A stretch of DNA of 64,000 bases from Monarcha castaneiventris obscurior (Eukaryota > Chordata > Aves > Passeriformes > Monarchidae). A program made the position numbers and the translations under genes. Position 1 is the stretch's first letter. Every line of letters starts with the position of its first letter. Where the stretch lies: the NCBI GenBank assembly GCA_026261815.1, contig JAMPIT010000890.1:13360001-13424000 (forward strand), read 5' to 3'. The notes below the pieces were generated by a model that was given only the letters and a program-made list of their open reading frames with translations, had not been told where the DNA came from and ran no database searches. Below are positions 18,631 through 41,801 of this stretch, piece after piece.

Positions 18631-18657
18631 CAGCTTTCCATCCATACCAATCGGACC
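18631..18657 (-). CDS. COL25A1: COL25A1 27-bp exon (GPIGMDGKL), possible cassette
   Basis: Minus-strand reading gives the acceptor gattatcccag, then nine codons encoding GPIGMDGKL, then the donor gtaggt after CTG. Borders are phase 0 on both sides and glycine occupies every third position. The exon is isolated: the next exon upstream is about 18.8 kb away and the next downstream about 4.7 kb away. Its donor is close to but weaker than consensus. Like the 37.5-kb exon, it encodes residues absent from the canonical human COL25A1 protein as I remember it, and it can be included or skipped without disturbing the frame. The ends join cleanly: GYP, GPI, GMD, GKL and then GQP keep the triplet pattern. 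The alternative reading, a chance match of a 27-bp open stretch with splice-like borders and strict Gly-X-Y, is unlikely. Confidence 0.78.
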
Positions 18658-37496: not shown

Positions 37497-37523
37497 CGGA
37501 TAGCCATTTCGCCCTGGTAGACC
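37497..37523 (-). CDS. COL25A1: COL25A1 27-bp exon (GLPGRNGYP), possible cassette
   Basis: Minus-strand reading gives the acceptor cattcaaccag, then nine codons encoding GLPGRNGYP, then the donor gtaatt after CCG. Both borders are phase 0 and the Gly-X-Y register is exact, so the exon adds three collagen triplets whether included or skipped. The donor departs from the gtaagt seen at the constitutive-looking neighbours, and the acceptor has a poor pyrimidine tract interrupted by purines. Both are typical of an alternatively spliced exon. These residues are not in the canonical human collagen XXV sequence that I remember, where GESGPPG runs straight into QPGPQ. In the paralogue COL13A1 several exons of this region are known to be alternatively spliced. 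I infer a cassette exon; transcripts would be needed to prove use. Confidence 0.78.
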
Positions 37524-39656
37524 CTGGTTGAATGAGATGAAATGGTACGACACATTAACAACACAGTCATGACATATGACATAACAAACATGCAGAGTAC
37601 ATCACTAGGAAATTATAATTTGTGTATTGCTTAATTGTATTGTATGTGATGACATTTCAGACCAATGAATATGAGATAGGTACTACACAGTGAAGAAACG
37701 AGACTTTGGAAATGGAAATTATGTGTTTTAAGTTAAATAAACACTTCAATTAAAAGGCAACTGGCTACTTCTGATGCCTAGTGAAATTCTGTTTTCATGA
37801 AGAGAATTATCCATGTAAACTGACAGGCAATATGTAGTTATTTAAAAAAAAAAAAACAACAGTTTAGTGTTTAGGCAGTAAAGTATTAGATTCCACTAGA
37901 ACATAAGTGCCAGAGAAGAAATCTGAGATTGCTATAAATGATCATAAAAAAAATTCTAATTCCCCAGACTTTTGTTGCTATTACATGTGCCACTCAGTAG
38001 TCATGTACAAAAAAAATAAGTAGAGCACTGCAGAAGCCTTTGAAATTACAACATACACCTAATTCCATGCAGTTTCATGTGCGATATACAAATATTTGAT
38101 ATTTTAAATTAATACTATTACCACAGTCTCCCGGGTGAAAACAATACTTAAGATCACTACAGTTGCCCCTAGCCAGTGTCTACGTAAATACAGAAGTGAA
38201 TTAGGAAGAGAAATTAACTTTTTAATACCTTGTAACAATCTAAACCATTGCTGCCTGTCAGCAAGATGAAGTCTTGTTGGTTTCAAGTTTGAAACTTGAA
38301 TTTAAAGTCAGATACTTCAAATGATTCAATTTTGGAATCTATTTCAGGTTTGTGCTAAAAATGCCAAGGTTAAGGCTTATATGGGGGGATGGGGCGGTGT
38401 TTGTTTGTTTGATTGTTTGGGTTTTTTTAATGTACCTATACTGAAACAGTGGGGAGCTGATGTCAAAGACATTCTTAATGAGGCATATAGTGAACTCTTG
38501 CCACGTTGCCTTGGTACAGGAAAATAGCCTGTATCATGATTTATGTTTGCTCTTTGTGTTTCATTGGAGGGCTGCAAAAGAAATTGGGGAAAACAGTGTT
38601 TCTTTCAAGTAAACAGCACCTTTATGCATTAAGCCTGGCTTTCCATTGATTGCTTGTTAAATGAATTTGTCACTATGAATTGCTGAGCACATGGTCAAAA
38701 TCTTACAAGGATAAGTTATAGCAAGACTCAGTATATGCAGTTTACAGTAAAATCTTTAGGTCACAGCAGAAATTCAACATATAAACTAAATATTCTTAAA
38801 CATGCATGTAGCATTGAATAGAGAGATGATAGGGTCTTGAAAATATTGCGGAAATACTGCATCTATTAAAGAAAAAACACAGAAGTCTGCAAACTGTAAA
38901 AGAAATAATGCTTTAACAGTCACAATCCTACACCATATGATACACACGGATGGCATGACAGATACAAATGAATGAGACATATGAGCTTAGTCCTGTCCTT
39001 CAAGTCAGACTTTTGAGCTACTCTGGGAATATACAAAAAAGCAAACAAAAGACATACAAAAAAACCCAAGCGAAAAACAAAACAACCTCAAAACATCAGA
39101 AAAGAGAAAATGTTTTCTCACAAGAAGAATTAGCACAAGATTCAATTGACTTACTAAATTGAATAGTACTATTTAATAATAATTTTACGCGAGCACTTAC
39201 TGGCTTCAGTAGCAATTACAGTGAAATGAGCTGGACAGTCCGTATTCCTCCAAAGAACAGGGAGCTTGTACCCCAAGATTTTGTGATAAATGCAGAGGAA
39301 GTTACTACCCAGCAAAAGTGGCCAGGTCTGGGCTTAAGAGAGAATACTCACATGTTTTTATACTGCAGTAAAATATGTGTTATGAAGTCACAGGCAAAAT
39401 GAATGTAATATACTTACGCAGAATTGTGAATCCAAATGGCAATCTGGAGCGCTGAACATAAAGCTTTATTGATTTAGAGACTTTTTTCTTAAGGAACTTT
39501 CTGATTAAATTATTCAGCTCCAAGATACTCTGTATGTATAAATATCAAAATTCCCTCTTGAGTGTACATGATCATTTTATCACGCTGATAACTTAACAGG
39601 ATCTAACAGATTTCTCCCTGATTCTGGAAGAACCAACAATGTATCACTGTACTTAC
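37524..39656 (-). other. COL25A1: COL25A1 intron between micro-exon and GLPGRNGYP exon
   Basis: This 2.1-kb intron starts gtaagt directly after the 8-bp exon and ends caaccag. It includes a 13-A run near 37844-37856, a G/T-rich stretch at 38376-38427 and an A/C-rich stretch at about 39035-39100. No further exon was seen. Confidence 0.72.
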
Positions 39657-39664
39657 AGGAGGTC
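39657..39664 (-). CDS. COL25A1: COL25A1 8-bp micro-exon (Gly-Pro-Pro)
   Basis: On the minus strand the sequence reads ccccacag, then GACCTCCT, then gtaagt, giving an 8-nt exon with perfect AG and GT borders. The preceding 45-bp exon ends with a lone G (phase 1). That G plus GA makes a glycine codon, followed by CCT CCT, so the exon yields Gly-Pro-Pro and ends in phase 0. All downstream exons start in phase 0, so skipping it would shift the frame. It is preceded by a pyrimidine run of about 50 nt. An exon of about this size is, as I recall, also reported in the related COL13A1 gene, so this may be an inherited feature of the family. Eight bases alone could occur by chance; the frame logic, the strong splice sites and its position between two clear exons are what support it. 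Confidence 0.78.
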
Positions 39665-39714
39665 CTGTGGGGTGGGGGAGAGGGGAAAAAAGGGTAAAAA
39701 AAGAGAAAAAAAGA
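39665..39714 (-). promoter_or_regulatory. Extended polypyrimidine tract before the micro-exon
   Basis: On the minus strand about 50 nt immediately upstream of the 8-bp exon are almost entirely C and T, interrupted by four A residues and one initial G, ending ccacag. It is far longer than the tracts at the other four acceptors here. A strong tract is expected to help U2AF binding where the exon is too short for normal exon definition. No TGC motif of the SRRM4 type lies inside the tract. Confidence 0.6.
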
Positions 39715-41756
39715 ACACGTAAGCTTACGAAGTTACCGAAGAAAGACACACATGTACAGTCAAGCACAAGGCCTTGGGATTGTCAGTGAGCAGCATTGCT
39801 AATACACAGCACACATTTTCCCACTCAAGTAATCTTGAGCTTTGGTAGTGCTCTGAAACTTGCAAATATGACTGCTGCCTAAATGCATGCACTTACCTTA
39901 ACAAATCTTCAATTACAGTCATGCAATCTTAGGAAAATTGCTTCTCCATTCATTTCCATGCAATTTCATGCCAGTCCAAAAATACCAGCCATGGACTACA
40001 ATTCATTTTGTCAGACTCCACATAAAACATATGTAACCACATCACCAGTTTCAGTCAACCACACAGTGAGCATTTGATCAGAGCTTGGCTGAGGAATTGC
40101 ACAAAGTACCCTTGGCATTTAACCTGGGCATCTTGTCAAGAATATGTGTACCAGCATCTTCCAGAATTCCAACTTCGCCTGTGAGGGGAGGTTTCAGTGG
40201 CCACCTGACAGTGCTGAACTTTCTTTTCATCGCCTTCCTCTCTCAAGGCACACATATAAAATGCTCCCCATTAAAATGTCACACTTCGTGAAGTGATATT
40301 TGCACATTTTTTCAATTATTTAGACTTTAAAGACTTTTGTGTAGCAGTTCTTGGAAACATTATCAAAGGGCCACAAATCAAATCTACTATTTCAGTCTTA
40401 TTAAGTTGAGCAGCTGCAGCTCCCAAATCAATGGCATTTCATTAAGCTTTTATGCCTCTCTCTAATTTCTGAATAAAGTGAAGTGCAAAAGGAGTATAAA
40501 ACAGCAGCAGCTGTACTTTGAGATTGCTTTTAATATTGACAGCCTTTTGGTTTTAACAATGCAATTTTTATTGTCCAGCAACTAAGGTAATTTCTTTATT
40601 CTGGTAAACATTCTTAAACAGCATTTTAAGGTGCAGGCCTGTTTTTAAATGAGAGCTCCATTTCCTTTATTAATAGTTTAACATGTGTTTATTTGAGATG
40701 TAAAATGAATCAATGAGCATCCCACAAATTAATTTCCAGGATCATTTGTAACTTAATCTTCAACCACAGAATTTCTCTCTCTATCACAGCCTCTTTCTCT
40801 GAAGTAAATACTAGGACAACAGTGAATGGAAACACCAAGGCGATTTGTGTCAACCTTTGTCAGGGCTTGGTTTTAGTTTTGTGGTTCAGGAAGATAAGGA
40901 AATAGTTTTCAAGAGCCAGATGAATTATTCTTTACATAGATAAGAAAGGCTACAGAAGATTTACAGAGATCAAGTTGATTGGAAGACTTTCCTAGTTGGC
41001 AGATTAGACAAGACAGCCAAGGAGAATAGAAATGCTCATTTTCTACTGCATTGCCTCCACAAAGTTCACCTTGATGAAAAACTCAATCCCACAAGGTAAT
41101 TGATTCAATTCCTGTGAATGTCAACAGCAAGAGGTGCCCAGCATCTCACAGCTTTGCCTCAAATGAAATTTCAAGCTACACACCACCAGCAGGTTTCTAT
41201 CAACAGCAACCTCCCTGGTATAGAGTAACGATCCAACAAATGTTTTTCTTGTTTCTGTTAGAACTTAACTGCTCATTTCTATAAAACAACTTCTGTCATG
41301 CAGAGTAGTCTACTTATCACATTATGCCCCTGATTACCAACATTCTTGACATAAGGAATTTTATTTCCTTATTTATTTCCTTATAAAATTGTTCTCCTCG
41401 AGCCAAAGGGGCCTGTTGTAACACTGACACAGTATTCCAACTACTGACTTACATGGAGTTATTCTAACTTGTGCAAGTGTGAGAAGACCCTAAAGGGTTT
41501 GACAGTCACAGATGTGTTTCCAAAGGCGCCGCGTCAAGCTTTATGAAGTGTGCCTACAAATTAAGGATGGCCAAGACTAGAAAAATATCTGGAAGGCCAC
41601 CAGATATATGCCAAAGGTTACAATATTTTACCAGAGAAGTTTCAGAATTCTTTTTCAGAGCACACATGCAATATAACTAAAAATCAAGGCATGCTGGGTA
41701 TGCATCCTCACAAAAACAGACATCAAATGACAAATCTTATGAAATTCAAAACTTAC
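39665..41756 (-). other. COL25A1: COL25A1 intron before the micro-exon
   Basis: This 2.1-kb intron starts gtaagt and ends in a pyrimidine tract of about 50 nt plus ccacag. A small imperfect repeat of atttccttat units occurs near 41360-41385. No interspersed repeat or exon was recognised elsewhere in it. Confidence 0.75.
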
Positions 41757-41801
41757 CAGTCTCTCCTCTTCTTCCCCGCTTACCTCTTTTCCCTGGAGGA
41801 C
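41757..41801 (-). CDS. COL25A1: COL25A1 exon, start of first collagenous domain (45 bp)
   Basis: This internal exon encodes collagen XXV, a type II transmembrane collagen whose shed ectodomain (CLAC) associates with amyloid plaques and which is needed for motor innervation of muscle. Read on the minus strand, the acceptor is a T-rich run ending in ttttag at 41802-41803. The exon begins GTCCTCC and ends GAGACTG, followed by the donor gtaagt. With the G of the preceding exon it reads as Gly then PPGKRGKRGRRGETG, and the final G starts the next glycine codon, so both ends are phase 1. The very basic KRGKRGRR stretch followed by a Gly-Glu-Ser/Thr triplet matches the beginning of the COL1 domain of human collagen XXV as I remember it, differing by a Ser-to-Thr change. 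The upstream exon, expected to hold the Cys-rich junction and the furin-site region, was not found in the window. Collagen XIII is the closest alternative; COL25A1 fits better. Confidence 0.88.

Follow-up and report, generated by a model that had tools for sequence, protein, structure and literature searches.

A probable eight-base coding microexon in a passerine COL25A1 gene and its counterpart in COL23A1

We analysed a window of 64,000 nucleotides (the whole stretch of DNA under study, C679:13360001-13424000) from the genome of Monarcha castaneiventris obscurior. On its minus strand, eight bases, GACCTCCT, very probably form a genuine coding microexon of COL25A1, the collagen XXV gene, that would be spliced normally, probably constitutively, and be essential for the reading frame. 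Microexons of this kind are already known; the present case is strengthened by a counterpart in the paralogous gene COL23A1. Among the literature titles and abstract openings surveyed, a set that lies outside the older subscription papers, none described an 8-base exon of COL13A1, COL23A1 or COL25A1.

Table 1. Features of the COL25A1 window and of the COL23A1 locus. Positions without a contig name are those of the window.
Feature	Position	Strand	Details
Predicted 8-base microexon GACCTCCT	39657..39664	-	phase 1 to phase 0; finishes a Gly codon and encodes Pro-Pro; paralogous exon in COL23A1
51-base pyrimidine-rich stretch including the CACAG acceptor of the microexon	39665..39715	-	read from the sequence; acceptor rank 22/4409
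Microexon donor GTAAGT	39651..39656	-	highest possible intronic donor score
45-base exon, peptide GPPGKRGKRGRRGETG	41757..41801	-	phase 1 to phase 1; between ctttttag and gtaagt; next after the counterpart of human COL25A1 exon 3
27-base exon GLPGRNGYP	37497..37523	-	phase 0 to phase 0; between aaccag and gtaatt; COL23A1 counterpart GQSGRDGYP
27-base exon GPIGMDGKL	18631..18657	-	phase 0 to phase 0; between tcccag and gtaggt; COL23A1 counterpart GPLGLDGKP
COL23A1 exon-3 counterpart KLGEGLGKLRTAREAPSDCVCPP+G	C270	-	ends in phase 1; translated by eye
COL23A1 45-base exon GPPGRRGKPGRRGEPG	C270:5184786-5184742	-	
COL23A1 8-base exon GACCTGCA	C270:5177019-5177012	-	tgttttccag/GACCTGCA/gtaagtatcg; Gly-Pro-Ala; acceptor 11.9, top donor 5.2
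COL23A1 first 27-base exon GQSGRDGYP	C270:5173848-5173822	-	
COL23A1 second 27-base exon GPLGLDGKP	C270:5160600-5160574	-	

The position, splice sites, phases and reading frame of the microexon were established directly. The eight bases are present exactly as placed in the window (minus strand, 39664-39657), in the context ...TTTTTTCCCCTCTCCCCCACCCCACAG/GACCTCCT/GTAAGTACAG, and are flanked by introns of 2.1 and 2.1 kb. Upstream, the 45-base exon (41801-41757) reads (G)GT CCT CCA GGG AAA AGA GGT AAG CGG GGA AGA AGA GGA GAG ACT G, with a phase-1 exit (...GAG ACT G/gtaagt), while the downstream 27-base exon (37523-37497), GGT CTA CCA GGG CGA AAT GGC TAT CCG, starts in phase 0 after aaccag. With the 8-mer included, translation of the joined exons gave GPPGKRGKRGRRGETG-PP-GLPGRNGYP-GPIGMDGKL (written joined, GPPGKRGKRGRRGETGPPGLPGRNGYPGPIGMDGKL) with Gly-X-Y intact; with the 8-mer omitted, the frame read GETGSTRAKWLSGSDWYGWKA and Gly-X-Y was lost. 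Splicing of the 45-base exon straight to the 27-base exon was thus ruled out, since it breaks Gly-X-Y. These translations bear out the sequence-only reading, which had held that direct splicing would break the frame between a phase-1 and a phase-0 exon and that the 8-mer converts phase 1 to phase 0 while supplying Gly-Pro-Pro. Because eight is not a multiple of three, inclusion of the microexon is needed to lead from the phase-1 upstream exons to the phase-0 downstream exons. The expected spliced junction would read GAGACTG-GACCTCCT-GGTCTACC with the microexon, and GAGACTG-GGTCTACC without it.

We then scanned the 4.2-kb interval for exons of 2-35 nt that lead from phase 1 to phase 0, carry Gly at every third residue and have at least modest splice sites, as judged by a simple ad hoc scoring devised for the present analysis. 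As a result, the 8-mer was the sole candidate at loose site cut-offs, and no second microexon was detected in the interval at the cut-offs used. In simulated introns (first-order Markov, modelled on the same 4.2-kb interval), loose candidates arose at 0.043 per intron, and candidates with the donor score of the microexon and an acceptor within 1 unit arose at 1 in 3000 introns. Among all sites on the minus strand of the window, the acceptor of the microexon (score 10.1) ranked 22/4409 AGs and its donor 21/3825 GTs, in agreement with the earlier description of a strong acceptor and a perfect gtaagt around the eight bases. When coding content was ignored, AG-8nt-GTAAGT with an acceptor score of at least 10, a cut-off chosen post hoc in the knowledge that the window exon scores 10.1, occurred just twice among the 614,228 strand-bases available for COL25A1 and COL23A1, namely at the two microexons themselves.

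The transmembrane collagen that the sequence-only reading had left open resolves to COL25A1: judged by its sequence and gene context, the gene bearing the microexon is COL25A1, and on the same grounds COL13A1 was ruled out as its identity. About 151.5 kb upstream, on the same contig and strand, a transmembrane-segment exon showed 47.5% identity to the NC1 domain of human COL25A1, and at about the same distance, likewise on the same contig and strand, the exon-3 equivalent, KSYEHLAKIRVAREAAPECNCPP+G, showed 80% identity to human COL25A1. As in COL25A1, NC1 contains a transmembrane segment followed by CNCP(P/A)GPPGKRGKRGRRG, and the COL1 exon GDQGQAGPPGPPGPPGPRGPPGDTGKDGPRGMPG lies downstream on the same strand (C679:13342767-13342868, minus); this COL1 sequence, GDQGQAGPPGPPGPPGPRG..., is read in phase 0. 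The residues of the 45-base exon matched human COL25A1 at 15/16 positions, as against 12/16 for COL23A1. The microexon belongs to the first collagen domain, close to its beginning and immediately external to the membrane, and we take GACCTCCT to be the expected exon 5 in the human COL25A1 numbering. Both 27-base exons, GLPGRNGYP and GPIGMDGKL, are not known from human COL25A1 isoform 1, and may be optional exons that mammals have lost or that lack annotation there.

In human COL25A1 the last base of exon 3, c.367, is the first base of codon Gly123 (PMC12669723), so that the following exon is entered in the same phase as here, where the exon-3 equivalent ends in phase 1 (CCACCAG/gtaaca). The exon-3 equivalent in this bird measures 70 bases, matching the 70 bp by which transcripts without exon 3 are shorter according to a figure legend of that paper, which elsewhere writes the loss as r.300_367del, that is, 68 bases as against the 70 bp of its legend (PMC12669723).

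Conservation, which had been set beforehand as a test, is seen in one paralog from the same genome: COL23A1 carries an exon of 8 bases at this junction. The KLGEGLGKLRTAREAPSDCVCPP exon of COL23A1 gave an initial weak match (E 1.1) and was then matched by a COL23A1 query at E 3.5e-4 (79% over 24 residues), and the COL23A1 COL1 exon was found on the same contig, C270 (E 7.9e-11, 87%). The exon ladder was sought in 40 kb from between these two exons, where the order 45-8-27-27 and all phases proved identical to those of COL25A1, with 26/36 ladder residues identical and with GACCTGCA agreeing with GACCTCCT at 6/8 bases. The two microexons are thus equal in junction, length and phases, whereas that of COL23A1 encodes Gly-Pro-Ala instead of Gly-Pro-Pro and is flanked by introns of 7.7 and 3.2 kb, longer than those of COL25A1. 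The intron preceding the 45-base exon of COL25A1 spans about 151.5 kb (window 41801 to the extended coordinate 193352, C679:13553352); since its COL23A1 counterpart is about 124 kb, a very long intron is common to both genes.

The window scan, applied with unchanged cut-offs to the 10.9-kb interval between the 45-base and 27-base exons of COL23A1, returned one candidate, GACCTGCA. When site scores were almost ignored, 11 different 8-nt Gly-X-Y candidates appeared in this interval, of which the runner-up (acceptor 4.4, donor 0.1) lay far under GACCTGCA. Simulation of the COL23A1 interval yielded 0.24 loose Gly-X-Y candidates of any length per intron by chance, and no 8-nt GPP exon in 1000 simulated introns, GPA being outside this count.

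The exon might be real and yet act as a regulated switch, in which skipping in some tissues breaks Gly-X-Y and lowers COL25A1 via unproductive transcripts. This overlaps with the explanation we favour, as both take the exon as real, but we consider it unlikely. The skipped form indeed loses the Gly-X-Y frame, but no stop was encountered after skipping in three joined downstream exons, any exons lying between the last two having escaped detection, and the splice sites are near optimal, as in constitutive exons. Human fibroblast COL25A1 is heavily alternatively spliced, although the alternative exons named in the available text are in-frame ones (PMC12669723). Furthermore, TGCATG occurs three times in the 300 bases before the microexon, at a distance of 227-298 bases, a density reached in 0.36% of the 300-base stretches on the minus strand of the window; however, this cluster was picked out post hoc, as one among seven motifs counted, and COL23A1 has one TGCATG only in the equivalent 300 bases. 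A regulated role of the microexon thus carries low weight. The three motifs start at 39962, 39925 and 39891 (minus strand), all within 77 bases (window 39886-39962), and would be bound by RBFOX.

We regard it as highly improbable that GACCTCCT is a decoy, that is, a chance intronic AG-8-GT, and that the true transcript uses another exon between 41757 and 37523: the microexon is read here from genomic sequence, but no other 2-35 nt Gly-X-Y candidate passed even loose cut-offs in that interval, and a unit of 8 bases occupies the corresponding junction of COL23A1. It is just as hard to believe that the 45-base or the 27-base exon was misbounded and that the frame would fit without the microexon, for although a 36-base form of the former from an alternative acceptor at 41792 slightly outscores the 45-base acceptor (10.1 vs 9.0) and the first 27-base exon (37523-37497), detected at relaxed cut-offs only, has a weak donor (gtaatt, score 2.0), the 36-base form keeps the phases and so does not mend the frame, in COL23A1 the two neighbours likewise measure exactly 45 and 27 bases and agree in their phases, and the end of human exon 3 falls in phase 1 (PMC12669723).

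Taking the eight bases as a coding microexon of COL25A1, we infer from its sequence that it is included in the mRNA by constitutive splicing, and how the spliceosome may recognize it. The exon has the make-up of a spliceosomal microexon (at most 30 bases, an AG acceptor with a pyrimidine tract, a GT donor and a fit to the frame). As only eight bases would be available for exon-bound factors, recognition would probably proceed via the very long pyrimidine-rich tract and the consensus donor, which could let U2AF and U1 bind without aid from within the exon. Removal of one intron first would leave a larger composite exon for the second splicing step. PRP-40/PRPF40A is reported to be required for microexon splicing (PMC8378409, PMC11463390).

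Neuronal microexons of the SRRM3/SRRM4 type are also very small internal exons, but they are switch-like, whereas that of COL25A1 has 8 bases and is frame-essential. Microexons of the SRRM3/4 type have a UGC motif directly upstream of the acceptor, and no TGC was found in the 51 bases preceding the COL25A1 microexon. Nor does its length of 8 bases follow the multiple of three typical of the SRRM3/4 type; animal microexons mostly have lengths divisible by three and keep the frame (PMC8831610). The 4-base microexon of MPC1 shares a non-triplet length and is reported to be constitutively included in mRNA (PMC9929638), but belongs to an unrelated gene, is shorter, and comes from a minigene study.

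That two loci share an exon of 8 bases at one junction is most simply explained by inheritance from before their split, and the microexon is thus, on this sequence comparison, most likely older than the split of COL23A1 and COL25A1; that each gene separately acquired an exon of this length at this point is conceivable but improbable. Since the COL23A1 counterpart lies at the same place, the microexon looks like old, genuine and fairly ordinary gene anatomy. COL13A1 belongs to the same subfamily of transmembrane collagens, and its exons are reportedly as small as 8 bp (Tikka et al. 1991). The loci of COL13A1, COL23A1 and COL25A1 are given as products of early-vertebrate genome duplication (PMC4678570).

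A search of this genome failed to locate the COL13A1 5' exons: its 3 hits were weak (E 5.9 to 8.6), and none of them reads as COL13A1. The genome search is weak for short collagen exons, as a 27-residue window-exon query went unmatched at E 0.001, the window itself included; the absence of the COL13A1 5' part therefore says little, because such exons are beyond the reach of that search. A possible COL13A1 exon at G000:C675:32357211-32357315 (+) showed 80% identity over 35 residues to the human protein, with one TAG within the match, and the COL13A1 5' query had nothing listed on C675 near it. The broader proposal is that all vertebrate transmembrane collagens received the 8-base exon from a common ancestor as a fixed frame lock, retained since the early vertebrate genome duplications because its non-triplet length makes skipping fatal, and that in COL25A1 an upstream RBFOX-type cluster has turned it into a tissue-regulated switch; as a whole, this appears very unlikely.

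An annotation that misses the eight bases leaves the frame of collagen XXV broken right after the membrane. The earlier remark that exons this small are often missed by annotation is reasonable, and finds support from plants (PMC8831610). Biallelic human COL25A1 variants are associated with cranial dysinnervation and arthrogryposis (PMC12669723), and variants at so small an exon would easily be overlooked. The COL25A1/COL23A1 exon pair offers a natural setting in which to ask how an exon of eight bases on which the frame depends is maintained by the spliceosome across very long periods. In the protein database, none of the matches listed (120 of 325, and a further set of n=8) was named collagen XXV. 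Six proteins were inspected, two of which were COL25A1-like and are gene models rather than proof of splicing: in the monkey model (P0001) collagen sequence gives way to other sequence directly behind CNCPA, while the vole model (P0033) is without the peptide of the 45-base exon, so that the microexon junction is in neither. Together, these two models provide an example of mis-modelling in a region of short exons.
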